Shown: positions 1,331 to 38,231 of the stretch, in pieces
Numbering within the stretch: the first letter of the stretch is position 1
Layout of the letters: every line of letters starts with the position of its first letter
DNA from: Phycisphaerales bacterium
Lineage (GTDB): Bacteria; Planctomycetota; Phycisphaerae; Phycisphaerales; SM1A02
Length of the DNA stretch: 64,000 nucleotides
NCBI GenBank assembly: GCA_029268515.1
Contig: JAQWNP010000006.1
Location: 496,001-560,000 of the forward strand
Reading direction: 5' to 3'
Notes under the pieces: generated by a model
Told to the model about the DNA's origin: nothing
The model's input: only the letters and a program-made list of their open reading frames with translations
Database searches by the model: none
Made by a program: the position numbers and the translations under genes

Positions 1331-2197
1331 CTACTGTGGGCGGTCAAACATCCATGGTTTCTGTGGGTCGTATCCCAACAGGTCGTACAAATCGGACCTT
1401 GTGAGCATTTCATCTACCAAGCCACTTACAGTCCCTTCTTTGTGAAGCTTTTCAAGACCGCGCATGACATGTGCCATTGCCAGCCGAAGCATGCTGACAG
1501 GATAGATCACTAAGTCATAGCCCATTTCTTCAAAGGAATGAGCTTTAATCTCTGGCGTCTTTCCAAATTCCGTCATATTGGCCAACAACAAACCTGGGCA
1601 TTGACTGGAAAACAACTGGAACTCCTCTTTTGACTGAAGCCCCTCGGGGAAGATCATATCTGCACCAGCTTCTCGATAAGCGTTTCCGCGTTCAATTGCA
1701 GCTTTAATGCCATCAACACCACGCGCGTCTGTACGAGCAATGACAATAAGATCGGAGCTTGGTCGATGCTTGCAGGCTGCTCGAACCTTGTCCGCCATCT
1801 CCTGAGTTGGAACGAGTTGTTTTCCATCCAGATGACCACATCGCTTCGGAAACACTTGGTCCTCAAGATGTAGTCCGGCAGCGCCGGCGCGATCATAGGC
1901 AACGACGGTACGAACGACACTTTCTATTTCACCGAATCCTGTGTCTGCATCCACAATGACAGGCAAGCCACAGGCATCAACGGTCTCACGAATGGTGCGG
2001 CATATCTCCGTTAATGTAAGAATTCCCACATCTGGATATCCAGACATGTTTGAAGTCGCCCCACCAGAAATATAACAGGCGTCAAAACCCACTTGAGCTG
2101 CAGCGCGCGCCACCAAGGGACTAAATGCTCCTGGGCAAATAACAGTGCCTTGAGCGAGTTTTGACCGAAGTATGGAGCCGGGGTGCTTGGTGCTCAT
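1331..2197 (-). CDS. prpB: Methylisocitrate lyase
   Basis: Cleaves 2-methylisocitrate to pyruvate and succinate, the last step of propionate breakdown by the methylcitrate cycle. The 288-residue protein belongs to the PEP mutase/isocitrate lyase superfamily and has the usual PrpB length. Visible family features are the YISGGATSNMSGYPD segment, the metal-binding VDADTGFG (Asp83, Asp85), HLEDQ with Glu112, and the catalytic loop PKRCGH with Cys120. The C-terminal region includes YPVSMLRLAM, as in PrpB. The start is an ATG at 2197. The gene lies upstream of the prpC-like gene on the same strand. No prpD (methylcitrate dehydratase) is visible, so aconitase or a gene outside the window would have to complete the cycle. 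Isocitrate lyase proper is longer and less likely. Confidence 0.88.
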   Translation of the reverse strand: MSTKHPGSILRSKLAQGTVICPGAFSPLVARAAAQVGFDACYISGGATSNMSGYPDVGILTLTEICRTIRETVDACGLPVIVDADTGFGEIESVVRTVVAYDRAGAAGLHLEDQVFPKRCGHLDGKQLVPTQEMADKVRAACKHRPSSDLIVIARTDARGVDGIKAAIERGNAYREAGADMIFPEGLQSKEEFQLFSSQCPGLLLANMTEFGKTPEIKAHSFEEMGYDLVIYPVSMLRLAMAHVMRGLEKLHKEGTVSGLVDEMLTRSDLYDLLGYDPQKPWMFDRPQ

Positions 2198-2354
2198 AGC
2201 GTCTCACCTGTCTCAAAAGTTCTTTTTCGGGGACTTGTCATAGCCCTATTGTGACGAAATCCGCCTTGGCGGGCTAGCTCGCTCATTTCAATCAGCATTT
2301 AACGCCTTGTGATCAACTCATGCTGCCGGGGGCCCGATACCTCTTTTGAGGCCC

Positions 2355-2891
2355 ATGATGCAAGACGCCAAACAGAGCAAGAGAACCCCCCAACAGACCA
2401 TTATCCGCTACGTCCTTCCTCTGGGCCTGGCTGGACTGCTCATTGGCATGCTAGGCATGTGGCTGAAGCATGATCCGCAAATAGATACTGTTTCGGGTGT
2501 GACTCGCCAGATCTATGATATTGCACTTGCCCGCAGTAACGATTCTGGAAAACCATTTGGTGGTGCTGTTGGACCCTGGTGGATTAGTGCCGAAGGAACC
2601 GACTCCCTATCGGGTGATCTAACGGGCTTCTCTCTCACCAGTGGCGATCTTCATTTGGGTGCACAGCGCGCCACTGTTTGGGTTGATCCAACTAATAACA
2701 CTTTTTCACTACAGCTGCATGAAGTTGTCTTTCTCTCTGCGCCAAACAAAGACGAGGTTAATCCAAGTTTCCTACAGAATATAGATGAGTATGTTCTTGG
2801 TCCGGCCACCTGGCAGCGCGATATTGTTTCGGATGATCAACTGGCAAATCCATCGATGACCGTCACTGGTGTCGAACTCGCTGATTTTTAA
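2355..2891 (+). CDS. Hypothetical single-pass membrane protein
   Basis: I do not recognise the family. The product is about 179 residues, with a short basic N-terminus (KQSKRTPQQ) followed by one strong hydrophobic segment at roughly residues 18-40, rich in Leu and Gly. This reads as a membrane anchor or uncleaved signal. The rest is acidic, polar and beta-like, with no cysteines or recognisable catalytic motif, and probably lies outside the membrane. The open frame begins at a TTG at 2346. ATG 2355 or ATG 2358 is preferred because GAGG at 2348-2351 precedes them; the spacing suits 2358 best. It stands alone, divergent from prpB and convergent with the kinase gene, which ends six bases past its stop codon. 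Confidence 0.6.
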   Translation: MMQDAKQSKRTPQQTIIRYVLPLGLAGLLIGMLGMWLKHDPQIDTVSGVTRQIYDIALARSNDSGKPFGGAVGPWWISAEGTDSLSGDLTGFSLTSGDLHLGAQRATVWVDPTNNTFSLQLHEVVFLSAPNKDEVNPSFLQNIDEYVLGPATWQRDIVSDDQLANPSMTVTGVELADF

Positions 2892-2897
2892 AAATCT

Positions 2898-5024
2898 CTA
2901 CGGCGTATTTGTTGTCGGCATGTTAACCGAATCACTCATCTGAGCGCTTACTTCGCCACTGATTGCAGACGCACCCGTCGGAATAATGACGACTAGCTGC
3001 CATCCTCTATGGGGATCATTTGGATCTACTTCGACTAAGACGACACCACTTAGTCCATGTTTCTGACACAACTCATTAAACACACTATTTGTGGGTTCAT
3101 ATTGATTCAGTTGTCCACTCGGCGCTGATCTTCGCAGAGCCACCTCAGCATCATCGTTGCGCCGAGCGAGGTTCAGGCGATAATCCTTTTGTGCATTAAG
3201 CGCATTAAAAACTTCATACTCAACTTCAGGATCACCCTTACGGGGATGATCGTTAATGAGTAAGAGGGGTTTTACTGTGTTATAGGCCCCCTCAGGCAAG
3301 GGATGGAATCCCAACCCTGGTAGTGGCGTGGTATCAATCGCTGATTTTCTTATTCCATCATCTGTTTCCAAGACATATTGCCGCGTTACAAAAGCAGCGC
3401 CCACAACCACAAGTATTGCTGCTAAAACAAAACCATTGCGAACTTTTTGGCGATCACGTAGTCGAGAAGTACGAGCTTTAACCCTATCTGATAATGCATG
3501 GCTGCTATGACGCGCTTTATGAATGGTTTTTAAAGCGGCTGTTTTCATTTTAGACCGGAGACGTCGCGTCACGGTTCTATGATTATTTACGCCATCGGAT
3601 CCTTGTTGTTGATGCCCGCCTCTAAACTCATGCTTACCCTTAAGCCAGCTTAAGACGGTGGCAAAAGTTGAAGCCTGTGAATGTGTTCTAGACGGCGACA
3701 CCGTGTGAGCCTGTGAAACTACTGACTCATGAGCGTGTTCATCAATAAGCTGATTATCACTCATCGATGGAAGATCAGCGGCTCGAACATCCCACATTGA
3801 ATCACCCTTAAGAACCGCCAGAAGATCTTCCCGCATGATTGCAACAGAATCATATCGCTGGTTGTATTCGGCCATGGCACGGCGAACAATCCACTTAAGT
3901 GCCTCTGGGCTCTTTTTAGAAAACCGACTTAAGCCCCCATGTGCGGGAAATGTGTTCTCCAATGAAAAATACAGCACGGCGCCAGCTGCATAAATATCGA
4001 ACTTCGTACCATCGACATCATTAACCTTGACGCCGCGTAGCGCTTGTCGAACTAACTCGGGGTCTCGAAAGTATTCTGTGCCGTGGGTTGTTAGGGTCAT
4101 TGCAGAGCGAAGTGGAGTCACAAGACCTAAATCTACAAGATGAGCCCGGCCATCTTGCACAACAAGGTTTTCCGGTTTGACATCTTTGTGCCAGAGCCCA
4201 TTTGTGTGATAGTTACTTAGGGTATCTAGCAGATCGCCCATATATTTAATAACTTGATCGAGGTGCTGTTCATTCAATCCTGCTGAAGTGTTGCTTTGCC
4301 CGTGTAGATTGGGAATGACGGCGCCTAAGTGCTCCCCCGCGTGATAAGGCATCACATAGTAAAAACGCTCTTGATCCATCTGGTGCTCAATAACCAGGCC
4401 GATGCGGCGAGCTGCTTCTAGTGCACGAGATTCACGAACAATTTGTGGCAGGCCTGATCCCTCTGCGAGGGTAAAGCACTTAATAACAACGCGATGATCA
4501 TGTCCATGGCCCGTCCAAACTGGCTTGTTGTTCGGATTTGCTACATAAAGAGTCGCGCCTGAGCCGCCGCCTGCGAGTGTCCCAACAATGGTGTAGCCCT
4601 GAAATTGCTGCTCTCTTGATACTTGGACTGTGTTTTTCTTGGGAGACGCCAAGGCTTTTGGCACTCGTTTCTCAAGTCCCTCTAAGAGTCCATCAAGCAT
4701 AAAAAGGCGAAGTGGGCGGCGAATGCAACCTCGCCACAAACACTGCCCTAAGAATACGCTCTCTCTGGACAATGCATGTCCGAGCCGACTTACTCGCTGC
4801 CAATGACCCATCATGACATTCAAAAGTGCAATTGGAATGAGCACCGCCATTGCGATGACAGCGCCGAGTCCCTGAATAATATCCCCAATTAAACCGAAAA
4901 CAAACTCCCCCACTTGTCGAAAGACAAACCTGACCACCGGAAATATGACAAGTAATCCAATCACAACACACAATGTGATCAGCAATATGACCGGTAGAAC
5001 AGTTAAGAAGAAGCCAAAAATCAA
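2898..5024 (-). CDS. Membrane-bound Hanks-type Ser/Thr protein kinase
   Basis: A eukaryotic-like protein kinase of 708 residues. Two hydrophobic segments (about 3-30 and 50-72) form an N-terminal hairpin. The kinase domain spans about 143-405, with glycine loop AGGGSGA (151-157), VVIK with Lys182, catalytic HKDVKPEN (279-286; Asp281, Lys283, Asn286) and VDLG with metal-binding Asp298. HKD and DLG replace the commoner HRD and DFG, but the key acidic and basic residues are intact. A basic linker leads to a third TM (531-549) and a C-terminal domain probably outside the cytoplasmic membrane. The start is a TTG at 5024, supported by TGAGG six bases upstream; the first internal ATG would remove the TM hairpin. 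It lies 26 bp downstream of an ECF sigma factor gene and is probably cotranscribed with it, suggesting a kinase-controlled sigma circuit. Confidence 0.85.
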   Translation of the reverse strand: MIFGFFLTVLPVILLITLCVVIGLLVIFPVVRFVFRQVGEFVFGLIGDIIQGLGAVIAMAVLIPIALLNVMMGHWQRVSRLGHALSRESVFLGQCLWRGCIRRPLRLFMLDGLLEGLEKRVPKALASPKKNTVQVSREQQFQGYTIVGTLAGGGSGATLYVANPNNKPVWTGHGHDHRVVIKCFTLAEGSGLPQIVRESRALEAARRIGLVIEHQMDQERFYYVMPYHAGEHLGAVIPNLHGQSNTSAGLNEQHLDQVIKYMGDLLDTLSNYHTNGLWHKDVKPENLVVQDGRAHLVDLGLVTPLRSAMTLTTHGTEYFRDPELVRQALRGVKVNDVDGTKFDIYAAGAVLYFSLENTFPAHGGLSRFSKKSPEALKWIVRRAMAEYNQRYDSVAIMREDLLAVLKGDSMWDVRAADLPSMSDNQLIDEHAHESVVSQAHTVSPSRTHSQASTFATVLSWLKGKHEFRGGHQQQGSDGVNNHRTVTRRLRSKMKTAALKTIHKARHSSHALSDRVKARTSRLRDRQKVRNGFVLAAILVVVGAAFVTRQYVLETDDGIRKSAIDTTPLPGLGFHPLPEGAYNTVKPLLLINDHPRKGDPEVEYEVFNALNAQKDYRLNLARRNDDAEVALRRSAPSGQLNQYEPTNSVFNELCQKHGLSGVVLVEVDPNDPHRGWQLVVIIPTGASAISGEVSAQMSDSVNMPTTNTP

Positions 5025-5050
5025 TTGAATCCTCAGGCCCTATAAAGGGT

Positions 5051-5788
5051 CTAACTCCCAGTTAAAAATTGTTCATCAGCAACAAGAAGTTGGCTTTGCT
5101 GATGGTAAATATCTGCAATCGCTTCATCAAAGAGCTTGTCGTCAGAGACGAGGCCCGCACGGTCTGCTTCCGTCGCTTCGTCATCCGTAAAACTGAATCG
5201 TTCCATCGTTTCTTTTAATCGCGCACGGAGTGCAATACGTACTTTGTTTGCATACCGACTCACGGTAGGCTCACTAAACTCCAGCTGCTTCGCAATATTT
5301 TTACCTGACATGCCATCGAGTACGCCCATTCGATACACCTGAAACTGCACGAAGTTTGAGTCCGCTTCTGTCGCACGAATAGCTGCGTACACCTTTGCAC
5401 AAAAAATGCTTTGCTCATATGCCTTGTCTGGGTCGAGCGCTACCAGTGCCACCATATATCGATCATCAAGCGACGTGGGCCGACGGCCTCCACCACGTTT
5501 TTGGGCCATCCGACGATCAACCTCATCACCAAGTGCGTGTTTTGCAATCGCGAGTAACCATGTACTGAAACGGGCGCCGCGCTCCGGGTCAAAGCGGTCG
5601 ATTGACTTTGATAATTGAGCGAGCGTCTCTTGGCTCAGATCACGGACTGTCTCAAACCCAATACTGCCAGCACCCCACTTTGTTAATTGTTGACGTAGGA
5701 CTGGCCCAAAAACTTCCCAGAGCTCAAACCAAGCCGCCTCGTCACGCTGGCGCAGACGACGAACAAACGTCGTTGTGAGTGTATTCAT
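5051..5788 (-). CDS. ECF-family RNA polymerase sigma factor, kinase-associated
   Basis: A sigma-70 family factor of about 245 residues. Region 2 is visible near residues 50-95, with VRDLSQETLAQLSKSIDRFD followed by FSTWLLAIAKHAL. Region 4 carries the helix-turn-helix GMSGKNIAKQLEFSEPTVSRY. About 60 residues follow region 4, an unusual C-terminal extension for an ECF factor. The frame also contains GTG 5800 and ATG 5794; ATG 5788 is preferred because GGTGG sits eight bases upstream. No anti-sigma factor gene follows; instead the next gene is a membrane Ser/Thr kinase. ECF groups genetically linked to Ser/Thr kinases are known in Planctomycetes and are thought to be controlled by phosphorylation. 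That mode of control is inferred here from gene order. Confidence 0.82.
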   Translation of the reverse strand: MNTLTTTFVRRLRQRDEAAWFELWEVFGPVLRQQLTKWGAGSIGFETVRDLSQETLAQLSKSIDRFDPERGARFSTWLLAIAKHALGDEVDRRMAQKRGGGRRPTSLDDRYMVALVALDPDKAYEQSIFCAKVYAAIRATEADSNFVQFQVYRMGVLDGMSGKNIAKQLEFSEPTVSRYANKVRIALRARLKETMERFSFTDDEATEADRAGLVSDDKLFDEAIADIYHQQSQLLVADEQFLTGS

Positions 5789-5946
5789 GGGCATATCCAC
5801 CTTATTGGGAACCAGCGAGCTTTGATTTCAGGCCCACTTTAAAGGTCCTGTAGAGCTTGTGGTTACCCCCCCTTAGTGTAGGCCCTTGGTCACTATGTCG
5901 CGATATGGTGAAATTCTCAACCACAAATCCCTAAAGACATATTAAC

Positions 5947-5967
5947 ACAGCCTCTCTGGCTGTTTTT
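5947..5967 (+). terminator. Terminator-like hairpin upstream of the coiled-coil gene
   Basis: ACAGCC (5947-5952) and GGCTGT (5958-5963) form a 6-bp stem with a five-base loop, followed directly by a T run. This is the shape of a weak rho-independent terminator on the plus strand. No plus-strand gene ends just before it, so it could attenuate a leader transcript of the gene at 6031 or mark a small untranslated RNA. Confidence 0.3.
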
Positions 5968-6030
5968 GACTTGTACTTACGGGCCGAGTGATTTCGGCCG
6001 CCAATGACCACTCTAAAGGAAGGTAGACCT

Positions 6031-6975
6031 ATGGTTTCAATGACACGCTTCATTTTTCGTTGGGGACTCATCACCGGTGTTGTTACTGGTGCCACAGTTC
6101 TGATTGTCGGCCCTGAACGGGTTTGGGGAGGACTTGCCCAGATCAAAGCTAAAGCCCAGAGTGTCGTTGATTATTACATAGACGATCCGATCGCGCTAAG
6201 GCATCAGCTTCAAAATCTCGCAAGTGAATACCCCGATCGTATTGCTGATGTTCAAGGTGAACTCGCAACCGTTGAACATCAGCTTCTTGAAATTCAGCGT
6301 GATATTGATATCGCAGATCAGGTGGTGGGACTTACAACCACTGATCTATCTGATCTGCGCGATCTTGTTGCTCGAGCAGAGGCGGAGCAAACAAGGGCTG
6401 TCACACCTGTTGCCATTCGATATGAAGGGTCTCGATTTAACCTTTCTCAAGCCTATACAGAAGCGCGGCGAATTCAAAGTGTCAAGAACACTTATGATGA
6501 TCGTCGGGCTCAGGATAGACAGCAGTTGAAGTTTCTAGAGCAACAGCAGCAACAGCTCATCAACATTATGGCTCAACTCGAAACTGAATATGCCACGTTT
6601 CAAACCAAGCTGTGGCAGATTGATCGTCAAATCAACACGATTGAACGCAATGATCGACTTATTGAATTGACTGAACAACAGCAGGCCACCCTTGCAAGCT
6701 ATGACCGCCTTGGAAATGTGAATAATCTTAAGCAGATCGAGGGCCGCTTAGCCGAGCTTCGTGCGGTACAAGAGGCAACACTACGGACGCTTGCGAAAAA
6801 GGATGTGAATAAAGATTATGAGGCGAGAGCCGCTATGGGCTTGACCGTCAATATAGATAAAGGCAGCCCATTCGAGAGCCTCGATTCTCCCCATCAAGAC
6901 TTTGAATCGACGCCCGCTGTTTGGGCGAGTGAGCCTAGCCCACTGACTTGGGCTGACGAGATTGTGATTGATTAG
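6031..6975 (+). CDS. Membrane-anchored coiled-coil protein (cluster A)
   Basis: I do not recognise a named family. The product is about 314 residues. A short basic start leads into one TM or signal-anchor segment at about residues 5-27. Residues 60-260 are almost entirely predicted alpha helix and coiled coil, rich in Gln, Glu and Leu, for example LKFLEQQQQQLINIMAQLE. The tail is loop-like and contains Trp and Pro. The frame opens upstream at ATG 6004, but ATG 6031 has GGAAGG seven bases before it and is the better start. It begins a plus-strand group of three membrane proteins ending at 12377, suggesting a shared complex. The coiled coil resembles phage-shock or periplasmic adaptor proteins in shape only. 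Confidence 0.6.
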   Translation: MVSMTRFIFRWGLITGVVTGATVLIVGPERVWGGLAQIKAKAQSVVDYYIDDPIALRHQLQNLASEYPDRIADVQGELATVEHQLLEIQRDIDIADQVVGLTTTDLSDLRDLVARAEAEQTRAVTPVAIRYEGSRFNLSQAYTEARRIQSVKNTYDDRRAQDRQQLKFLEQQQQQLINIMAQLETEYATFQTKLWQIDRQINTIERNDRLIELTEQQQATLASYDRLGNVNNLKQIEGRLAELRAVQEATLRTLAKKDVNKDYEARAAMGLTVNIDKGSPFESLDSPHQDFESTPAVWASEPSPLTWADEIVID

Positions 6976-7013
6976 GGCTGTTTCTTCGTTTATAGCCCCA
7001 ACCAAAGACCGTT

Positions 7014-7049
7014 ACACGGACCCGCCACTAGCCCTGAGCGGGTCCGTGT
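7014..7049. promoter_or_regulatory. Perfect 12-bp inverted repeat between cluster A genes
   Basis: ACACGGACCCGC at 7014-7025 is matched exactly by its reverse complement at 7038-7049 with a 12-base loop between them. It lies after the stop codon of the coiled-coil gene (6975) and before the likely start of the next gene (ATG 7100). There is no T run, so it is not a classic terminator. It could be an mRNA-stabilising or processing hairpin that sets different expression of the two genes, or an operator. Confidence 0.6.
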
Positions 7050-7099
7050 CTATGATCTGGAGCAGGTATTGTCGCCGGTTGATCCGCATTGGCCTCCAG

Positions 7100-9361
7100 A
7101 TGAACATGAATAGCAACACGCCACAAATCCAAAGCGCCCTTCGCCGTATCTCCGCTCGCGAAATTAGATCGCGTGCTTTGGCTTGGTTTGTCATGGGATT
7201 ACTTGGTGGTGAGCTTCTTGCCATTGTTGTCTTGCTCATCACTCGATTTTTATCAATTGCATCGCCATGGTGGATCTACCTCATTATCTCACTCATCCCC
7301 GCCCTCGTGCTCACGGTTTATCAATTGCGAAGAAGAGACTCTCTTGAGCAAACTGCCACCAAAACCGACCGGCGTCTTAACCTGAAAGATCATCTGGGCA
7401 CCGCAACCCGCATCGATCAATTACCCTCTTGTGATGCTGGTTTCGCTTCCCAGCTCAAGGAGCAAGCGCTGCTTCTTGCTAAACAGATTGATCCCAAGCA
7501 AGCTGTCAAAATCCAATGGAAACAAACACTACCCGCGCTCGTTGGAGCACTGGTACTGGTTGTATTAATTATCTTTGCGCCATTGGCTGTGAAGAAAACA
7601 ACAACAAATGTGGCCAAAGACTCCTCTGCTGGACTAGAAACAGCATCACTTATCCGCAGTGTCTTGCCTCCAGCAGACGCTGTTGACCCAACTAGCTCAG
7701 ATGAAGATCGTGATATTCTCGATGAGCTTGCTGCTGAACTTGAAGATCCCGAACTCTCTCAAGAGGATGCCTCGCGGCTTGAGCAAAAATCTGCTGCACA
7801 CATGCAGCGCATGGCTAGTGCGCTCAACAAACAAGCAAAACAGAGTGCTGCTCAAGCGGATGCGATAGCAGAACAATTTCGACGCGCCAGTGACGCCGCC
7901 CCAGCCCGAACAAATCAACAAAAAACAGAGGCACTGGCAAGCGCATTATCGCGCGGTGACTTTGAGCAAGCCGCAGATCTTCTGGACGATGCGAATCGCG
8001 CTATGAGTGATCCCGGTCAACAAGAAGATCGTGCACTTCTTGCTGACTACCTCGATCGACTCGCTGATGCAATGGAGAACCAACCCCAACAGAACTCACA
8101 AAAGTCGATTGTGCGAGAACAACTTGAGCAACTCACACAAGACCCTGACTTAGCCCAGAAGCTCACCTCTCCCGACACCAATGATCTGACTCAAGATGAA
8201 GCCATTGAGGCACTTGAAGAAGCTGGCTTGGATGCGGAAGTGGCTCGAGAGCTTGCTGCAGATCTTGAACAGTTCGCAGAGGATCAAAAACAACAAGATG
8301 ATCTTGAGCAACAAAAAAGAGATATGAGTGAAGCGTTGGAGCGCACTGCAGAATCTTTTCGGCAACCGCCTCCATCGCAGCCTACGACACCAGATCAAGA
8401 AAACGATAACCCGGAGCCACGGGAGACCAACACAGAACCCGCGCCGGAAGTAAACGAACGCCCTTCTCAGCGTGAGACAAGTAAACAATCTTCGCCGCAG
8501 CAACAGAACGAGCCCGCTGATCAAGAGACACCTGAAGAAGGTGATCAGGGTGATCCACAGCAACAGAATGAGCCCACCGATCAAGAGACACCTGGACAAG
8601 GTGACCAAGGTGATCCACAGCAACAGAATGAACCCACCGATCAAGAGACACCTGAACAAGGTGATCAGGGTGATCCACAACAACAGAATGAGCCCACTGA
8701 TCAAGAGACACCTGGACAAGGTGATCAGGGTGATGCGCCACAATCGCCTACAAATCCGCAAGAACAATCCACAAAACGACAAGATGATGGCCGTGATACA
8801 CAGCAGCCTCCTTCTGGAAACGAGCTGAACCCTGCACAAAACAAAGAAGAGGGCCAAAATACGGGTGAACAACCTACCGGCGATCAAGGTCTAGGTCGTG
8901 AACAAACACCAGATCAAAAAAGACAAACTCAACCCACACCTGCCTCCGATGCGCTGCGACAGTTGGCTCAAAAACGACGGGACGCTGCGCGTCAACAAAA
9001 CCAAGCAGAACAGCTCGACCGGGCACTCAGACAGATTGTCTCTCAAGATTCTTCTTCTGCTAATGGTCGTACTGAACTTACAAAATCGAGTGACCCCACC
9101 GATACCGCAAGTGATGACCTCAACAATCAACTTCTTGATGTACGCAATGGAGCCGATCCAGATAAAACAACAACGCGTTGGCTCACACCCGATGGTGAGA
9201 TTTCTCCAAATTTAACCAGCCAGTTGTATCCAACACCAAATGCAGTACCCGCCGCCGAAGCACAGCAGATTGCAGAACGGGCGACCACCACGACTGTTGT
9301 TCCACGAAGATATCACGATCTGATACGTCGATACTTCGAGCAACTTGGGACACAGCCGTAA
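7100..9361 (+). CDS. Three-TM, Q-rich coiled-coil membrane protein with tandem repeats (cluster A)
   Basis: About 753 residues from ATG 7100. The frame is open back to 6968, but that would place the 12-bp hairpin inside the gene. Two TM segments lie at about residues 23-48 and 53-72 and a third at about 145-165. Between TM2 and TM3 is a soluble helix (TKTDRRLNLKDHLGTA), resembling the same place in the 1170-residue protein at 42917. After TM3 the protein is acidic and Gln-rich with long coiled coils. A 20-residue unit (DPQQQNEPTDQETP plus QGDQG) is repeated four times at about residues 467-546. The C-terminus is ordered and ends near RYHDLIRRYFEQL, a pattern also close to the end of the cluster B Q-rich protein (YEKMTRSYYRLL). 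Its stop is one base before the VWA gene start. Role unknown; a scaffold for the VWA partner is inferred. Confidence 0.65.
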   Translation: MNMNSNTPQIQSALRRISAREIRSRALAWFVMGLLGGELLAIVVLLITRFLSIASPWWIYLIISLIPALVLTVYQLRRRDSLEQTATKTDRRLNLKDHLGTATRIDQLPSCDAGFASQLKEQALLLAKQIDPKQAVKIQWKQTLPALVGALVLVVLIIFAPLAVKKTTTNVAKDSSAGLETASLIRSVLPPADAVDPTSSDEDRDILDELAAELEDPELSQEDASRLEQKSAAHMQRMASALNKQAKQSAAQADAIAEQFRRASDAAPARTNQQKTEALASALSRGDFEQAADLLDDANRAMSDPGQQEDRALLADYLDRLADAMENQPQQNSQKSIVREQLEQLTQDPDLAQKLTSPDTNDLTQDEAIEALEEAGLDAEVARELAADLEQFAEDQKQQDDLEQQKRDMSEALERTAESFRQPPPSQPTTPDQENDNPEPRETNTEPAPEVNERPSQRETSKQSSPQQQNEPADQETPEEGDQGDPQQQNEPTDQETPGQGDQGDPQQQNEPTDQETPEQGDQGDPQQQNEPTDQETPGQGDQGDAPQSPTNPQEQSTKRQDDGRDTQQPPSGNELNPAQNKEEGQNTGEQPTGDQGLGREQTPDQKRQTQPTPASDALRQLAQKRRDAARQQNQAEQLDRALRQIVSQDSSSANGRTELTKSSDPTDTASDDLNNQLLDVRNGADPDKTTTRWLTPDGEISPNLTSQLYPTPNAVPAAEAQQIAERATTTTVVPRRYHDLIRRYFEQLGTQP
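8498..8737 (+). repeat. Four tandem 60-bp in-frame repeat units
   Basis: Units start at about 8498, 8558, 8618 and 8678, each exactly 60 bp and encoding DPQQQNEPTDQETP then EEGDQG, GQGDQG, EQGDQG and GQGDQG. The copies are nearly identical at DNA level, including synonymous sites, pointing to recent duplication by slippage or unequal crossover. The period is a multiple of three, so the frame survives changes in copy number. Confidence 0.92.
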
Positions 9362-9362
9362 G

Positions 9363-12300
9363 ATGCCAATTGTTTTCGATCATCCAACAGCATTGCTCTT
9401 ATTGTTTCTTATTGTTCCATTCATGCTCATTGGCATGAAAGCGGTCCAGGGCATGGGTTCTTTTAGGCGCAGGCTTATCTTGGGCTTTCGTGCGATATTG
9501 ATTGTCTGCTTGGCTGTGGCGCTTGCTGATCCGAAAGTCGTGCTCCCAACGGATAAGCTCACCACACTTTATGTCGTGGATGTGAGTGCATCGGTTCGTC
9601 AGTTTGCCCAACCATCGACAGAGAACATCAGCCAACTGGCTGAAATGAGAACATGGATAGACAACACGAGTGAAGATAGGCCCCCGCTTGATCGCGTGGG
9701 TGTGGTTGCTTTTCAAGACAAACCCAAGCTCGTCCACATGCACACTGTGGGCCCACTGAACGATTTGGTATTGGAAGGTACTGGTGCCTCAGGAACCAAT
9801 ATCTCAGATGCCCTTCAATTGGCTTCGGGCCTATTGCCACCAGATACGCTTGGGCGTCTTGTCTTACTCAGTGATGGTAACGAGACGGCTGGTGATGCTT
9901 TGTCAGTGGCTCATAGCATTGTTGCGAACAGCGATCTACGAATCGATGTTGTTCCGCTTCGCTACGCCATTAAGGGTGAGACATATGTCGCAAGCCTAGA
10001 GGCGCCCGCTATAGCGCGGCCAGGCCAAACCATTGCGCTTCGCGTTGTTATTGAGTCGGCCGATCCAATGACGGGCCAACTCGTTCTTTCTAATGGTGGA
10101 CAGCGTGTTGATCTTAATGAGGATCCACAGCAGTTTGGCTTGCCGATCGAAGTGCCCGCGGGTCGGAGTGTGCACGTCATTAGTGCCGCTATTGCCCCCA
10201 CTCCTATTAATAGATTCGAAATTAGCTTCTTGCCTGATGGGCCCGATCTTGTCACTGCTAATAACACGGCATCGACAGTCGTTGCGACACCTACACGCGG
10301 CCGCATGTTAATCGTGGCTCAAGATGTTGTTCTACAGAACACACTTGATTTCGCTGATCTACCTGTCATGACAATCCCTCCTGACCGACTTACAACCGAT
10401 TTGTTATTGCTCCAGACTTACGATTTGATTGTGTTGGACAACATCCCGGCTTCCGCGATTAGTTTGCTACAACAAGAACGCCTTCGAACCTATGTAGAGG
10501 AGTTTGGTGGCGGCCTACTTATGATTGGTGGACGGTTGAGTTTTGGCCCGGGCGGCTGGAATAACACACCATTGGAGGCACTTTTACCTGTTGAACTAGA
10601 CCCGCCTGCCGAACTTCGCCGTTCAACTGGGGCCCTTGTTCTGGTTTTGGATAAATCAGGATCAATGAAGCGGCCTGTTGGTGGGGCGCTTGCGTCACAA
10701 CAGCAAGTCGCGAATGAATCAGCCGCACTTGCAATTGAATCGCTTCTCTCGGGAAGCTGGGTGGGCGCCGTGGCTTTTGATGAACAGGCGTATGAAGTAC
10801 TTCCAATGACACGTAAGGATGACGAGGCTAATCTCGGTGGACCTATCCGCGGAATCCAAACTGGTGGTGGCACCAGATTGGCTCCTGCCTTGAGGTTGGC
10901 CCAGAAGATGCTTTTACCTATTGATGTGCCTGAGAAGCACATTGTTCTTTTGACCGATGGCCGAACCGATGAAGCAAACCTTCAACTTATTGCCCAGGAT
11001 ATAGCTGAGCAGGGCATTTCACTCACAACGATTGCTGTTGGCGATGAAGCAGATCATCGCGCCTTACAAGGGTTAGCAAAAATTGGTGGTGGTGTGTTTC
11101 ATGATGTACGCAATCCAAGACTATTGCCTCGAGTCCTTATTGATTCGGTTCAGGTCATTAACACCCCACTTATTAAGGAAACTGAACTCTCTGTTGTGCC
11201 CCGCCCAACCGGATCTCCCCTCGCCGCTTCAATGTCATCGGCGCCAACAATTTCTGGCAGCATTATCACTTCTCCCGCAGATGATCCGGCGGTACAAATA
11301 GATCTTGTTGACTCTGATGGCGATCCCTTGCTCGCCCATCGTCAATTTGGCATGGGCCGTGTTGGAGTATTCATGTCAGATAGTGGTCAGGAGTGGACAA
11401 ATGCATGGCCCACATGGCAAGGGGGACCTTTGTTCTGGGCACAACTTACGCGATACTTAGCCCGCGCCCCTGCGATTGAGGATCTCGAACTTGTCACGCG
11501 TGTTGACGGCGAAACGTTATATGTTGACTTGCAGGCAATGGATGAAAATGGTGATTGGCTTGATTACCTCACTTCTACTGCAACGGTACGTGGACCAGGT
11601 GGATCAAAGCGACGGATGAACCTCACCCAAACCGCACCGGGACGTTATCAGGGAAATATACAACTGAATAAAAGTGGCGACTACGTGCTTGTTATTGCGG
11701 CTCGTCATGGCACGCGCTCTTTGGCTCCAGTTATTACTGGTGTTAATATTCCAGCAGCAGCTGAGTATCGATTTCAAAGATCTAATGATGATCTATTGAC
11801 TAAAATTGCTGCTGCCGGAAAAGGTCGCATTCTCGAATTGAATGCCCCAACAGCCGCCAATGTCTTTTCAAAGGCTGATCTTCCGGAACGAGCATCATTG
11901 AGCTCGCTTTGGCCTGTATTAGCATGGATCTGCCTGGCCCTACTGTTACTCGATGTTGCTGTGCGTCGACTTGTATTAATGCCTAATGCAACCACTCAAG
12001 CCACAAATGCCTCAACCTCGTCTCGTGCTTTAGGTGCGATGCGAATGCGACAAGTCAAACGAAGTAAAGGATCGCCAGCGACAGCAGTACGTCCGGAAGA
12101 TGAATCACTAACTCCCACTTTCGATCCTCTTCCTCTGAACCAACCTGGCTTACAGAAGGTCGAATCAATCAGTTCCAGCGCACCGGCAGTCGATAAACTG
12201 AGTGAGGAAGAGCTTCATGCCGCAATTGATAAATTACTTGGCAAAAAAAGTTCCGCCAACAAGCCCTCAGCATCAGAGCCCCCGCCCGAAACGCCGCCAG

Positions 12301-12377
12301 AGAACACCGACGGGTCCGAAAGTACATTGGATGCACTTCGCCGAGCCCGTATGAATCGCCAAAAAGATGTTGACTAA
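9363..12377 (+). CDS. Double VWA-domain membrane protein with GATase-like domain (cluster A)
   Basis: 1004 residues from ATG 9363, one base after the stop of the previous gene. Two N-terminal TM segments (about 8-26 and 38-56) precede a von Willebrand A domain with an intact MIDAS DVSAS (73-77). A class I glutamine amidotransferase-like fold follows, ending in GGGLLMIGGRLSFGPGGW. A second VWA domain then carries DKSGS (430-434) and later LLTDGRTDE. A C-terminal TM lies near residue 850, followed by a charged disordered tail. The VWA/GATase order is similar to the cluster B protein at 40504, but here the MIDAS domain is duplicated. VWA domains bind protein ligands through a metal ion, so this is probably the binding subunit of the cluster A complex. 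No enzyme activity is expected from the GATase-like part; no catalytic Cys is visible. Confidence 0.8.
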   Translation: MPIVFDHPTALLLLFLIVPFMLIGMKAVQGMGSFRRRLILGFRAILIVCLAVALADPKVVLPTDKLTTLYVVDVSASVRQFAQPSTENISQLAEMRTWIDNTSEDRPPLDRVGVVAFQDKPKLVHMHTVGPLNDLVLEGTGASGTNISDALQLASGLLPPDTLGRLVLLSDGNETAGDALSVAHSIVANSDLRIDVVPLRYAIKGETYVASLEAPAIARPGQTIALRVVIESADPMTGQLVLSNGGQRVDLNEDPQQFGLPIEVPAGRSVHVISAAIAPTPINRFEISFLPDGPDLVTANNTASTVVATPTRGRMLIVAQDVVLQNTLDFADLPVMTIPPDRLTTDLLLLQTYDLIVLDNIPASAISLLQQERLRTYVEEFGGGLLMIGGRLSFGPGGWNNTPLEALLPVELDPPAELRRSTGALVLVLDKSGSMKRPVGGALASQQQVANESAALAIESLLSGSWVGAVAFDEQAYEVLPMTRKDDEANLGGPIRGIQTGGGTRLAPALRLAQKMLLPIDVPEKHIVLLTDGRTDEANLQLIAQDIAEQGISLTTIAVGDEADHRALQGLAKIGGGVFHDVRNPRLLPRVLIDSVQVINTPLIKETELSVVPRPTGSPLAASMSSAPTISGSIITSPADDPAVQIDLVDSDGDPLLAHRQFGMGRVGVFMSDSGQEWTNAWPTWQGGPLFWAQLTRYLARAPAIEDLELVTRVDGETLYVDLQAMDENGDWLDYLTSTATVRGPGGSKRRMNLTQTAPGRYQGNIQLNKSGDYVLVIAARHGTRSLAPVITGVNIPAAAEYRFQRSNDDLLTKIAAAGKGRILELNAPTAANVFSKADLPERASLSSLWPVLAWICLALLLLDVAVRRLVLMPNATTQATNASTSSRALGAMRMRQVKRSKGSPATAVRPEDESLTPTFDPLPLNQPGLQKVESISSSAPAVDKLSEEELHAAIDKLLGKKSSANKPSASEPPPETPPENTDGSESTLDALRRARMNRQKDVD

Positions 12378-12382
12378 ACAAT

Positions 12383-13828
12383 TCAAGTTGATGGATTACT
12401 GATTGGCATCAACGGTTCATCGGGATCTGATTCGTTTGTTGCCGATTCAGATGCCTCATAGGCCTTCATAATTAAGACCCCTGGATAGTAAAACTCGACA
12501 ATAGCATGGGCTTCCTGCCCTGCACGAGCCATCGCCTGCGCCCCGTACTGGCATAGGCCCACCCCATGACCAAAGCCCCACCCCTCAATGCCTATGAGAT
12601 CGCCATCGACCTTAATACGAATATTCTCCGATAGCAATTGAAGCGATGCCTGTCCCCCTTCTGAATCACCCCGCATGAGTGCTCGACGTAATTGTGCGGC
12701 ACTGATTTCGATCGCTCGACCTTGCTGATCTGAAATCACCATCGATCGTGCTCGCCCAAAGGGATTGACACTCTTAACCTCAATTGCCTTCAATTGGCCA
12801 AGACGCGCTAACTCTTCCTTGTCGTGACTCTTCCCGAAGATCCTAAGCCGCTCTTCAACCAGCTGGCGTGTTGTTTTTCGTGTCCAATGGAAAACGCTGG
12901 CTTGATAGCACTGTGCTGGTGGGCCATGTCCATTAAGTGGTGCTATCTCATTAATCGGATTTGGGCCAATCGCTTCACTGGCAAGTGCCGGTTGACCGCC
13001 ACAACAACTAGCGTAATACCCGGGAACCAGTCGCCCCTGATAACTAAGTACTTCTCCATGTGTTTGTTGAACAGATACCAGCGCCTCTTTGTTTGTGGTG
13101 GTGCCTTGATATACCTGAGATCGGACTGATGATTCAACATCAAAGTGACTGCGTCCAATGCGTGACAAGATTTCATTTATTGCATAGCTTCGTGCCGCGA
13201 TTGCTTGGGCCTCATACGTTTGTTGGTGCCAGTCAGCATAGAGCTCGCCGGAAAGAACACCGGGTAAATATTGTTCTATAGGAACCTCATTAATAAGATC
13301 CCAAGCACCCGAACCCTCATTGCTAAGGGGCTCCAAACGAAATATTCCGGGGTATTGCCGAGGCGGTTGTGCTTTACCAGATTGAATCGATATTGAAGAT
13401 GACACGCTGCCTTGTCTGTTTGCATCACGCACGATGAGCGACTGAATCGGCAGGACAACACGGCCACGGCCGGATGTTTCTTGGAATCGCCAACCATCAC
13501 TCGCAAGATATATTTCTAGTGGACCAGAGAATGCGCCCAAAAGCACATTGTCCTGAGCATTTGTAATTCGTAACCGTTGACCAGATTTGCCCAAAATCAG
13601 ACGCTCGCCTCGATTTCGAATTCTCTTTAATCGGACTCTTACATCTAATTGTTGGGTTGGAACAGTGTGGCCAACTTGAGGTGAAACCTCTTGGGGCTGC
13701 TTAGCGACGACCTCACTCTGTTGATGCTCGGTGCTCTCTTCCTGGGGCGAACAACTCAATATTGAGCACATTACTGCGCATGTGATCGTCGCCGGGAATA
13801 CATATAGCAACCTGTTGAAAAACTTCAT
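12383..13828 (-). CDS. SpoIID/LytB-domain lipoprotein, putative peptidoglycan lytic transglycosylase
   Basis: 481 residues. An N-terminal hydrophobic segment ends in ILSC with Cys26, a plausible lipobox, so the protein is probably exported and lipidated. The SpoIID/LytB domain covers about 180-470. It has the core VPIEQYLPGVLSGE with catalytic-type Glu195, then EAQAIAARSYAINEI, YYASCCGGQ and the family signature WGFGHGVGLCQYGA near residue 430. In sporulating Firmicutes SpoIID cleaves glycan strands; planctomycete homologues are common but not well studied, so glycan cleavage is inferred. The N-terminal 60-160 region has SPOR/SLH-like beta character without a clear family. The gene converges on the cluster A VWA gene, with five bases between the stops. 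No sporulation genes are nearby. Confidence 0.83.
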   Translation of the reverse strand: MKFFNRLLYVFPATITCAVMCSILSCSPQEESTEHQQSEVVAKQPQEVSPQVGHTVPTQQLDVRVRLKRIRNRGERLILGKSGQRLRITNAQDNVLLGAFSGPLEIYLASDGWRFQETSGRGRVVLPIQSLIVRDANRQGSVSSSISIQSGKAQPPRQYPGIFRLEPLSNEGSGAWDLINEVPIEQYLPGVLSGELYADWHQQTYEAQAIAARSYAINEILSRIGRSHFDVESSVRSQVYQGTTTNKEALVSVQQTHGEVLSYQGRLVPGYYASCCGGQPALASEAIGPNPINEIAPLNGHGPPAQCYQASVFHWTRKTTRQLVEERLRIFGKSHDKEELARLGQLKAIEVKSVNPFGRARSMVISDQQGRAIEISAAQLRRALMRGDSEGGQASLQLLSENIRIKVDGDLIGIEGWGFGHGVGLCQYGAQAMARAGQEAHAIVEFYYPGVLIMKAYEASESATNESDPDEPLMPISNPST

Positions 13829-13911
13829 CAGGGTTTATTTTAGACACTACCTGAGTTTTCTCAGAGAGAACTGTCACGTTTGCTGCAAATTATGTCGCTA
13901 ACGAGCCCGAA

Positions 13912-14862
13912 TCAGTCAAGATTTCTCAGACCCAGCCCATAGGCGGTGAGAAGCTCACCGATCTCCTCGAGGCTGGTTGCTCCAAAGTTCTTGACGCCCA
14001 TCAGCTCAGCTTCTGTCCGTGTTGCCAGGTCACCAATGGTCTGGATACCTAATAACTGAAGCGCTTTTCTTGAACGAACCGAGAGGTCAAGACCAGACAA
14101 GGGTTTGTTAAGAACATGCTCAGGAGCTTGGCCCTTAAGTTCCTCATAGATCTCTTTGCGAACGCGGCTGTATTGACCTTCAAGGCCTTGGCCAAGGCGG
14201 AGGCCTTTACTGGCAAGCATCGCTCGAATCTCAACCAAGGATGTCTCACCAAAGTTCTTATAGCTAAGCAGCTCTGACTCGCCAACACGAAGAAGATCGC
14301 CAAGTGTTCGAATCTGCATTTTCTTAAGGCAATTTCGAGCGCGGACAGAAAGTTCGAAATCGGTTACTGGTGTATCAAGTAGCGCGTTACGTTTAGCGAG
14401 GTCACGTGCGTGTTCCTCGTCATAGTACATATCTCTAGAAGCAGATACATCCCTCATAAACAAACGTGCGCGAAGATGGTTTGGGTTTGTATCTAGTACT
14501 TGGCGAAGGCACTTTTCAGACTTCGCAATTTCACCACGATCTTCATAAAGAACCGCAAGGTTAACGAGCGCGTTGATGTGGGCTTGGCCCTCACAACAAA
14601 TACTCTCATAAAGATCTATGGCATAGTCTTCCTCGCCCATCAGATCTAACAGATACGCTAAGCGGAAAATATGCTCTGGGTGATCGCCCATGTCGACCGC
14701 TTTGTTATATTCATCAATCGCAGCCATGCGATTGCCTTCGGCCTCAAACTTCTTGCCAGCCTCATAGTGGTTTGCTGCAGCCTTGATGTCGTGCTCACCA
14801 ACACCATTTCCAATCATTGTGTCTAGCACGTGCTCGGCGGATCCAGGTTGGACTTCATTCAT
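13912..14862 (-). CDS. TPR protein with two RNA polymerase alpha-CTD-like domains
   Basis: About 316 residues from ATG 14862, which has GGAG seven bases upstream; the frame is open to a TTG at 14937. Residues 28-135 form TPR-like helical repeats, for example AAIDEYNKAVDMG and KCLRQVLDTNPNHLRARL. Two copies of the alpha-subunit C-terminal fold follow, at about 165-222 and 254-314. Each has the hallmark pattern ELSVRARNCL or DLSVRSRKAL, then IRTLGDL or IQTIGDL, then KNFGETSLVEI or KNFGATSLEEI. In RNA polymerase this helix-hairpin-helix domain binds UP-element DNA and activators. The rest of the alpha subunit is absent. A DNA-binding or transcription-modulating role is inferred. It precedes no polymerase or ribosomal genes here. 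Confidence 0.85.
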   Translation of the reverse strand: MNEVQPGSAEHVLDTMIGNGVGEHDIKAAANHYEAGKKFEAEGNRMAAIDEYNKAVDMGDHPEHIFRLAYLLDLMGEEDYAIDLYESICCEGQAHINALVNLAVLYEDRGEIAKSEKCLRQVLDTNPNHLRARLFMRDVSASRDMYYDEEHARDLAKRNALLDTPVTDFELSVRARNCLKKMQIRTLGDLLRVGESELLSYKNFGETSLVEIRAMLASKGLRLGQGLEGQYSRVRKEIYEELKGQAPEHVLNKPLSGLDLSVRSRKALQLLGIQTIGDLATRTEAELMGVKNFGATSLEEIGELLTAYGLGLRNLD

Positions 14863-14940
14863 TTGAGGGCTCCGGCGACTGGGTGGTCGCGATTTTGATG
14901 GACTACGCAGTCTATCGAGCACTTCTCCCTGGTACAAGAC

Positions 14941-36115: not shown

Positions 36116-37198
36116 ATGCTAGAAGCTGACCAAAATAAAGATCAAAACCTACAAGCCAGTGCTGAAAAGATGGCCCAGAAAGTCAAGGATGCACACCATC
36201 AAATCTCCTCTGAAATAGGCAAGGTCATTATTGGGCAACACCAAGTGATTGATGAGTTGCTGATATCACTATTTTGTGGTGGACACGCTCTTGTGGTTGG
36301 TGTTCCTGGTCTCGGAAAAACACTACTCGTATCCACTATTAGCCAAACCCTAACACTTGATTTTTCTCGTATTCAATTTACCCCAGACTTAATGCCATCA
36401 GACCTTACTGGCACTGAGGTAATCGAGGAAGATAAAACCACAGGTATGCGATCTCTTCGGTTTGTTAAAGGGCCGATTTTCTCAAACGTCATTTTGGCAG
36501 ATGAGATAAACCGAACACCACCCAAAACTCAAGCAGCGCTTTTAGAGGCAATGCAAGAGAGACAAGTCACGACAGGTGGAGTGCGGCATGCGCTACCAAA
36601 CCCATTTTTTGTATTAGCGACACAAAACCCGATTGAGCAAGAAGGAACCTACCCACTTCCCGAAGCCCAGTTAGATCGGTTTATGTTCAATATTAAAATT
36701 TCATATCCAAACGAGAATGAAGAGTTAGCAATTGTTCAACAAACAACAGCCCTTAAAGAAACAAGTTTAAATGCGGTGTTGGGTGCTAGTGATGTTGAGG
36801 AAGTGCAAAAACTTGTTCGACAAGTTCCAATCGCAGATCATGTTGCTCGTTATGCAGTCAGAATTGCTAGGTCTACAAGAGTTCGGGACGTCGATGACCC
36901 CCCAGCGGTCGTAAAAAACTACGTGAGCTGGGGCGCTGGTCCCCGGGCGAGCCAATTCTTGGTCCTCGCTGCAAAAACACGTGCGATTTTATCTGGTGAT
37001 GCTCATGTGACGCCAGATCACATCAAATCAATTGCACCATCAGTGATGCGACACCGCGTTATTACTAATTTTAACGCTGAAGCAGATGGAATTACATCAG
37101 ATGAAATCGTTGCCACTCTTTTAGATGAAATACCAGTGGAATCTTCAGTGGGTGATCTCAAGAAGAACTTGGATTCAGTTCTACCATCACACTCTTAA
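36116..37198 (+). CDS. moxR: MoxR-family AAA+ ATPase (cluster B, gene 1)
   Basis: 360 residues. Walker A is GVPGLGKT (62-69), Walker B VILADE (125-130) followed by INRTPPKTQAALLEAMQE. Sensor 1 is ATQNPIEQEGTYPLPEAQLDRF. This is the usual MoxR sequence pattern and length. MoxR proteins act as chaperone-like ATPases that work with VWA proteins to mature or activate complexes, for example methanol dehydrogenase or RavA partners. Start ATG 36116 has GGGAG eight bases upstream, the first clear ribosome binding site of the operon. The genes that follow (DUF58, BatA-like, VWA) are the standard partners of MoxR. The energy-using subunit of the cluster B complex is the likely role. Confidence 0.95.
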   Translation: MLEADQNKDQNLQASAEKMAQKVKDAHHQISSEIGKVIIGQHQVIDELLISLFCGGHALVVGVPGLGKTLLVSTISQTLTLDFSRIQFTPDLMPSDLTGTEVIEEDKTTGMRSLRFVKGPIFSNVILADEINRTPPKTQAALLEAMQERQVTTGGVRHALPNPFFVLATQNPIEQEGTYPLPEAQLDRFMFNIKISYPNENEELAIVQQTTALKETSLNAVLGASDVEEVQKLVRQVPIADHVARYAVRIARSTRVRDVDDPPAVVKNYVSWGAGPRASQFLVLAAKTRAILSGDAHVTPDHIKSIAPSVMRHRVITNFNAEADGITSDEIVATLLDEIPVESSVGDLKKNLDSVLPSHS

Positions 37199-37250: not shown

Positions 37251-38231
37251 ATGAGTAGTAACAACCAAAATTATGTTCGTGCAGAGCAGTATTTGGCACC
37301 CGAAACACTCGCCCAACTAGCGCCATTAGAGTTACGCGCAAAAATGATTGTTGAAGGAGTTATGAGTGGAATGCACCGCTCTCCGTATCAAGGTATGGCA
37401 GTTGAGTTTGCTCAACACCGTCAATATGTTCCTGGCGACGACCTTAAACATCTCGACTGGAAGGTATATGGACGATCAGACAAACTCACTATCAAGCAGT
37501 TTCAACAAGAAACAAATCTTGACATCTTATTGTTAGTTGATGCTTCCGCTTCAATGGGATTCGGATCTCTTGATATCAAACAAGGGTGGGGTGGCACGAA
37601 GGCAAGTGAAAAAACAAAAACATGGACAAAGTTTGATCACGCAACCGCCATTGCCACAGCGGTTTCTTTTTTATGTCTTCACCAACAAGATCGAGTGGGA
37701 TTAGTGACCTACAACAGTGAATTACAAAACATGGTCCAGCGTAGTAATAGCCAAGGCCAGTGGCATCGCATATTGAATTCATTAAGCACTGTGCCAGTAG
37801 GCGAAAAAACAAACTTGGTAAAACTAGCAGACCAGGCGCTAAGTAAAATTAGAAACAAAGCATTGTTTGTTATTGTTTCAGATTTCTTTGAGCCACCAGA
37901 AGCAATTCAACAAGCACTTGCTCGATTTAAACACCGACAAAAAGATGTCATGTTGCTCCAGGTGTTAGACAACCAAGAGATCCAGTTTCCTTTTATGCGG
38001 GACGCGGCATTTCAGGGTCTTGAATCAGAGGGTCGCGTTCGGGTTGATCCAAAGGCATTGCGAAATGCGTATCTTGAGGTGCTTGCCAATCATATTGAGA
38101 AAATTAGTTTGATGGCAGGCCAATTTGGTTTTAGCCACACCATTTTCGATAGCCACAAATCAGTCGGACCCGCTATTAGTAAAATTCTTGTCCGACGCAG
38201 CGCGCTCATTAAGCGGAGTAAATCAGCATGA
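37251..38231 (+). CDS. DUF58 domain protein with VWA-like fold (cluster B, gene 2)
   Basis: 326 residues. The DUF58 signature is VEFAQHRQYVPGDDLKHLDWKVYGRSDKL at about 51-79, of which QYVPGDDLKHLDWK is the recognisable core. A VWA-like domain follows with an intact MIDAS DASAS (97-101) and later FVIVSDFFEPPEA. There is no TM segment, so it is cytoplasmic. DUF58 proteins are consistently encoded directly after MoxR and are thought to link the ATPase to membrane VWA partners. The stop codon overlaps the next start by four bases (ATGA), giving translational coupling. Start ATG 37251 lies 52 bp after the moxR stop and lacks a strong ribosome binding site. Confidence 0.92.
   Translation: MSSNNQNYVRAEQYLAPETLAQLAPLELRAKMIVEGVMSGMHRSPYQGMAVEFAQHRQYVPGDDLKHLDWKVYGRSDKLTIKQFQQETNLDILLLVDASASMGFGSLDIKQGWGGTKASEKTKTWTKFDHATAIATAVSFLCLHQQDRVGLVTYNSELQNMVQRSNSQGQWHRILNSLSTVPVGEKTNLVKLADQALSKIRNKALFVIVSDFFEPPEAIQQALARFKHRQKDVMLLQVLDNQEIQFPFMRDAAFQGLESEGRVRVDPKALRNAYLEVLANHIEKISLMAGQFGFSHTIFDSHKSVGPAISKILVRRSALIKRSKSA

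Follow-up and report, generated by a model that had tools for sequence, protein, structure and literature searches.

The 64,000-nucleotide stretch of Phycisphaerales bacterium DNA considered here (contig JAQWNP010000006.1, positions 496,001 to 560,000; hereafter the window) contains a cluster of three plus-strand genes, cluster A (6031-6975, 7100-9361 and 9363-12377), which codes among others for a coiled-coil (CC) protein and for a membrane protein with two VWA domains; as an original prediction made from the letters alone had pointed out, and as was confirmed at the locus, neither a MoxR ATPase nor a DUF58 protein is encoded there. The locus raises the question of which MoxR, if any, serves these proteins; to our knowledge, with no search aimed at the point, the way in which Bat-type partners with VWA domains across the membrane are reached by a cytosolic MoxR ATPase is itself an open question. 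The best explanation, to which a probability of roughly 0.57 is given, is that cluster A (CC and VWA) and a distant locus D (MoxR and BatA) represent the halves of one ancestral CC–VWA–MoxR–DUF58–BatA operon and code for one machine that is split in trans. The results support the common descent, the architecture, the intact metal sites and the co-occurrence of the A-type VWA with the D-type BatA, and from these we infer a joint action of A and D in trans.

All the open reading frames of cluster A are present as first described:

6031-6975, plus strand: coiled-coil anchor with one transmembrane (TM) segment, which goes with a neighbouring sigma-factor/kinase module; homologues in 37 of 61 genomes
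7100-9361, plus strand: CC protein with three TM segments and a long acidic, Gln-rich tail; profile matches to the CC proteins of clusters C and B
7187-7591, plus strand: TM1-TM2-helix-TM3 region, also present in the cluster B and cluster C CC proteins, from profiles and hydropathy
9363-12377, plus strand: VWA/GATase membrane protein (A-type VWA)
9558-9956, plus strand: first VWA domain, with an intact DxSxS/T/D metal site
10635-11120, plus strand: second VWA domain, between two GATase-like stretches, metal site intact (PF13519, E 4e-23)
12321-12374, plus strand: C-terminal helix of moderate model confidence, following a disordered linker and containing LDALRRAR, a variant of the LLxAKRRA motif

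The 9363 protein consists of two N-terminal TM segments, the first VWA, a GATase-like domain split by the second VWA, a C-terminal TM segment and a 137-residue tail; the second VWA domain, already proposed in the original prediction, is real, and occupies residues 425-586, between the stretches that match the GATase-like family. The AlphaFold2 model (37 sequences) has a mean predicted local distance difference test score (pLDDT) of 83, with residues 874-947 and 960-986 below 50 and a helix of moderate confidence at 987-1003. A PDB search with it returned mussel PTMP1 chains at ranks 1-5 (TM-score by target 0.38-0.41) and BatB of Bacteroides thetaiotaomicron (3ibs) at rank 6 (0.73). On the positive-inside rule, the VWA part most likely faces the periplasm.

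The evidence for a divided operon comes from 61 related genomes of six families (f1-f6). A-type VWA proteins were called by identity and rank in 35 of them, 33 also by tree; they are found in 17/37 genomes of f1, 6/6 of f2, 1/1 of f3, 6/6 of f4, 0/6 of f5 and 5/5 of f6. In f1-f4, 27 regions were read, some of them on short contigs, and none showed a MoxR near the gene. In f6, three of the five genomes (G049, G053 and G057) hold CC–VWA–MoxR–DUF58–BatA as one run; G045 is partly rearranged, with CC–VWA–MoxR joined, BatA divergent and DUF58 not found, and in G041 VWA, MoxR and BatA are on three separate contigs. The G049 MoxR is 66% identical to that of locus D, 56% to that of cluster C and 48% to that of cluster B. 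In a MoxR tree (67 rows, rooted on the B, E, F and X sequences) D and the f6 proteins group together (96/85) to the exclusion of all 18 C-linked MoxRs; relatives hold an intact run in which an A-type VWA is joined to a D-type MoxR. A tree of 43 VWA rows, with cluster X as the root and without the three long-branch rows L086, L087 and L199 and seven near-copies, likewise unites A with f6 (98/95) and places C in a separate clade (100/99), while the BatA tree was too weak for a decision.

A second set comprised 80 loci from named assemblies and is only partly independent, since 15 of them repeat contigs of the 61-genome set. Sixty-seven are best classified as A or f6 type and 13 as C type; a MoxR match lies in the fetched flank of 3/67 loci of the former (L351, L342 and L352) and of 6/13 of the latter. 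L351, from the Phycisphaeraceae isolate OFTM12 of unknown family, carries the whole CC–VWA–MoxR–DUF58–BatA run. L342 and L352 have a MoxR–DUF58–BatA set, C-type by its BatA and DUF58, about 6 kb from the A-type VWA and on the opposite strand, an arrangement that may be a trace of an old neighbourhood.

In the genome of the window itself there are seven MoxR matches, five of them strong and two weak, together with four for BatA and three for DUF58. Loci B, C and E each hold MoxR, DUF58 and BatA; locus D (contig C1, 350602-353649) holds MoxR and BatA, with no match there to DUF58, VWA/GATase or CC proteins; locus F is a MoxR alone. Cluster C lies on another contig than A (L068, G000:C10:276000-295999, at 1858-14379), in the order CC, solute-binding protein (SBP_bac_6), permease-like protein with NHL repeats, VWA/GATase, MoxR, DUF58, BatA; the permease part was assigned by eye and through a relative, L364, which matches BPD_transp_1. 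The two C-type loci examined gene for gene, L364 (Verrucomicrobia) and L357 (unclassified bacterium), carry the cluster C gene set in a different order, CC–MoxR–DUF58–BatA–SBP–permease–VWA. Because a VWA gene with MoxR–DUF58–BatA close by is found in cluster C, in cluster X and in several Verrucomicrobia loci, the joined state is most simply taken as ancestral, and A and D would have been split later. Two more C-like VWA/GATase genes, L235 (G016:C10) and L236 (G027:C32), have no MoxR match in the 16 kb read, and VWA genes may have parted company with MoxR on more than one occasion.

Co-occurrence of the two halves was found for BatA and not for MoxR. In f1, a D-type BatA is present in 15/17 carriers of the A-type VWA and in 0/20 other genomes (Fisher p 1.5e-8, kinship ignored); the two carriers in which it was not found are G011 (74% complete) and G025 (80%). 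Each of the 15 positives was inspected and its score compared with that against C-type BatA. Among the 20 negatives, 11 were inspected directly, eight were judged by matches positioned next to C-type genes, and G015 (72% complete) gave no match. A C-terminal fragment of a D-type BatA, possibly a relic, occurs in a genome without A-type VWA (L237, G033:C1:855000-870000, at 7223-7705). The D-type MoxR, defined by 60% or more identity and no linkage to C, is present in 34/37 f1 genomes (G023, at 60%, is not placed by tree). A test made on the D-MoxR tree gave two supported pairs, both concordant.

As to the metal sites, the DxSxS of the first VWA is kept in 51/51 rows that cover it, that of the second in 28/28 A, 5/5 f6, 2/2 X and 4/18 C rows, so that both metal ion-dependent adhesion sites (MIDAS) are intact in 28/28 A rows. 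The C-type proteins that lost the second site (14/18 rows, from f1, f3, f4 and G058) keep the first.

VWA/GATase proteins from several phyla end in a short motif, TSxLLxAKRRAx, that comes after a disordered linker; relatives linked to a MoxR are among those that share it. The canonical form ends 16/17 C, 18/26 A and 5/5 f6 rows, three cut or shifted rows having been set aside, and two more A rows, including that of the window, have the variant form; shuffled tails gave the motif in 5/2500 cases. Inspection by eye places it also at the end of 12 of another 15 distant loci, mainly from Verrucomicrobia, and no paper containing it was found in a full-text search that covered four of its spellings; a tail of this kind is lacking in the cluster B protein. 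This tail would be the best candidate for a contact with a cytosolic partner, most simply a MoxR. A second pattern seen by eye, VPRRYHxxIxRYF, lies near the C-terminus of the CC proteins of A and C; a loose form of it is present in the last 60 residues of 11/20 A and 2/14 C rows.

In the proposed mechanism, the 7100 CC protein and the 9363 VWA/GATase protein would form the membrane part of a Bat-type MoxR–VWA machine, with MoxR and BatA supplied by locus D. The operon, still whole in a sister family, would have broken up in the lineage of this genome, the DUF58 gene having been lost or displaced. The VWA/GATase part would stand on the side of the periplasm, and the MoxR of locus D would bind from the cytoplasm, with two candidate contacts, one at the TM2–TM3 helix in the CC protein and the other at the motif that ends the VWA protein; hydrolysis of ATP would then alter the hold or release of a periplasmic or membrane target by the two metal-site VWA domains. 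This mode resembles the action of NorQ through NorD, itself a proposal.

The closest known systems share parts of this design. The Bat (Bacteroides aerotolerance) proteins, found with MoxR and DUF58, are alike in their two N-terminal TM segments, VWA and C-terminal TM segment. Unlike them, the 9363 protein has two VWA domains, the second inside a GATase-like domain, and its presumed MoxR and BatA are encoded elsewhere, with DUF58 at neither place, so that MoxR and DUF58 do not share its operon; the function of Bat itself is described as unresolved in the part of the literature available (PMC3557215). NorQ/NorD is alike in joining a MoxR to a VWA partner with an intact MIDAS and a flexible linker, as far as the accessible text of two papers goes (PMC13036017, PMC9976466), a likeness that implies no membership by sequence. 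In the same text, the C-terminus of the VWA partner touches the MoxR, and the MIDAS residues of NorD are indicated to serve the target and not the binding of MoxR. The VWA of NorD, as described there, is at the C-terminal end and contacts NorQ directly, whereas the VWA domains here, most likely in the periplasm, would leave the tail as the sole part to reach a MoxR. The MoxR-vWA ternary conflict systems (PF20030 bpMoxR) also combine MoxR, VWA and further partners, as set out in the available part of PMC7159879, and cluster C too has a beta-propeller (NHL) protein; however, a membrane VWA/GATase protein, a CC protein and BatA are not among the components described in that part. The B, C and D MoxRs score 41, 49 and 53 bits against bpMoxR (cut-off 27) and 209-210 bits against AAA_3, about 160 bits higher.

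Nearest of all is the cluster C type, sister of A in its CC and VWA proteins and carrying a C-terminal motif of the type seen in A; A differs from it in the lack of transporter genes and of an adjoining MoxR, and in retaining the second metal site. In its own genome, the next match to the 9363 protein is the full-length C protein on contig C10 (32% identity, E 1e-117), while that of cluster B matches over 77 residues (E 5e-6); between profiles, A against C gives E 2e-181 for VWA and 5e-52 for CC, as compared to 1e-21 and 5e-10 for A against B. These scores make cluster C, and not B, the close sister of A within the genome. The genes of cluster B, of which A had been taken for a partial copy, are likewise present in the window as first described:

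36116-37198, plus strand: cluster B MoxR
37251-38231, plus strand: cluster B DUF58 (PF01882)
38228-40507, plus strand: cluster B BatA-like protein (PF07584, TIGR02226)
40504-42822, plus strand: cluster B VWA/GATase protein
42917-46429, plus strand: cluster B CC protein

The common origin of the pairs 7100/42917 and 9363/40504, as the original prediction had it, is supported by profile comparison, at a remote level. No Pfam family is common to the 7100 and 42917 proteins; nor does any Pfam or NCBIfam family score above its cut-off for these two or for the 6031 protein. When the 7100 protein is compared with that of 42917, BLASTP gives no match (E 0.94), and their kinship is visible by profiles only: the N-terminal family profiles align at 95.8% (E 6.7e-9) over the three-TM region and the TM2-TM3 helix, and the full-length ones at 96.7% (E 4.7e-10, 159 columns), compared to controls of at most 1.6% for the N-terminal profiles and 25-41% for reversed full-length coiled-coil profiles. 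The CC profile was built from 18 of 29 upstream open reading frames plus P0002 and G001. The similar three-TM layout was borne out by a hydropathy scan, with segments at 30-48, 58-76 and 146-164 in the 7100 protein and at 23-41, 49-67 and 144-162 in the 42917 protein; the CC proteins of A, B and C all have three TM segments at almost equal spacing. The 9363 and 40504 proteins match by BLASTP (E 2e-8) and by profile (99.4%, E 1.4e-21, 396 columns; the B profile has only three rows), and of the two only the former exceeds the Pfam cut-offs for VWA_2 and GATase1_like, the latter matching both families below them. As BatA aligns to the A-type VWA profile nearly as strongly (99.1%, E 5e-19) as the 40504 protein does, the kinship of this pair is at the level of the superfamily.

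Upstream of the CC gene, the 6031 gene is present as claimed; the label of an extra anchor of the complex did not hold, since the gene belongs with two neighbours:

2898-5024, minus strand: Ser/Thr protein kinase of the neighbouring module (PF00069, E 7e-17)
5051-5800, minus strand: ECF-type sigma factor of the neighbouring module (PF04542/PF07638)

A homologue of the 5051 sigma factor adjoins the anchor in 19 of 20 loci read out of the 37 found, the sole exception being close to a contig end, and the anchor was therefore set aside as a member of the CC–VWA complex, although it is still commoner in A carriers. It is present in 28/30 A carriers of f1-f4, in 13/13 genomes of f2-f4 and in 0/6 of f5, and belongs to a module of its own that accompanies A where A parted from MoxR; a regulation of A by this module is possible.

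Several observations weigh against a split operon working in trans. The decisive branch of the MoxR tree has only moderate support, and the f2 C-linked MoxRs adjoin it (81/53); in a 41-row VWA tree with no outgroup and with L086, L087 and L199 included, f6 falls between A and C. On an RpoB tree (35 rows, three of them partial; G012, G015 and G025 gave no RpoB match, and G011 was outside the BatA trait), 5/5 supported independent pairs agree on BatA, which speaks for the split, but with a p of 0.0625 that falls short of 0.05. The idea that the MoxR half tracks the A-type VWA failed when examined: the D-type MoxR is present in 20/20 f1 non-carriers, was not found in 3/17 f1 carriers (G011, G012 and G025, 74-82% complete), and had no BatA, VWA or CC match nearby in 13/13 non-carrier loci read. 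Its presence in all non-carriers, together with the three carriers in which it was not found, indicates that it has another job too, or instead. As to the motif, 6/26 A rows and the cluster C protein of the same genome hold imperfect forms only, and cluster X, which is linked to a MoxR, lacks it (0/2). Finally, the anchor is found in 15/17 f1 A carriers and 9/20 others (p 0.014, kinship ignored), and in 0/5 genomes of f6, where the A orthologues mostly adjoin MoxR. After a recount of the anchor, the probability of a split operon was lowered from 0.60 to its present value, that of the alternative considered next was raised slightly, and that of a borrowed MoxR fell marginally.

The distribution of the anchor fits a cluster A that has no MoxR at all and acts as a periplasmic VWA scaffold or sensor under the neighbouring kinase, sigma factor and anchor, an explanation that is rather unlikely and yet has the best standing among the alternatives. 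It accords with the 27 MoxR-free regions of f1-f4 and with 64 of the 67 A/f6-type loci of the second set, and the 37 A-type loci with a full upstream flank carry a sigma factor in 13, a kinase in 13 and an anchor in 11. However, the D-type BatA tracks the A-type VWA more closely than the anchor does, relatives with the operon intact have a MoxR, and the C-terminal motif is largely retained.

It seems unlikely that cluster A relies on a MoxR borrowed from B or C within its own genome. The B, C and D MoxRs are mutually 49-55% identical, C is the nearest sister system, and at L342 and L352 a C-type set lies near an A-type VWA; yet the f6 MoxR that adjoins the A orthologues groups with D, and a match to the cluster B CC protein at E 1e-20 is missing from two A carriers, G041 and G012 (82% complete). 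The sharing of B's MoxR, which had been suggested at first, falls under this unlikely reading and is not the best supported choice. It is more improbable still that A and D were separate from the start and that the f6 operon is a secondary fusion, a view that draws on the A+D run being confined to f6 and L351 and that must contend with the VWA genes near MoxR–DUF58–BatA in C, X and several Verrucomicrobia loci. The claim that A is a partial copy of B, with MoxR and DUF58 left behind, can be practically dismissed, since the remote homology of both gene pairs is outweighed by profile scores far closer to C and by the clade that A-type VWA genes form with f6, spanning 5/6 sampled families.

Downstream of cluster A, the window (13912-14937, minus strand) codes for a strongly conserved protein (91% within the genus, compared to 67% for the VWA protein) that matches TPR and, in two places, the RNA polymerase alpha C-terminal domain; its gene stands beside SpoIID-like and MATE genes close to cluster A in several relatives.

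Among the open PMC matches listed, the portions available describe no split MoxR/VWA operon in Phycisphaerae. A narrower form of the split-operon reading, in which a distant MoxR would drive a periplasmic double-VWA protein through a cytosolic TSxLLxAKRRAx hook on a disordered tether, is put forward tentatively, as somewhat improbable; in it, the hook is a predicted docking motif, as suggested by its occurrence from Verrucomicrobia to Phycisphaerae. If true, the hook and the split operon would narrow the contact to a short cytosolic peptide and one MoxR of five, and an ATPase that is absent from the VWA cluster need not be absent from the system.

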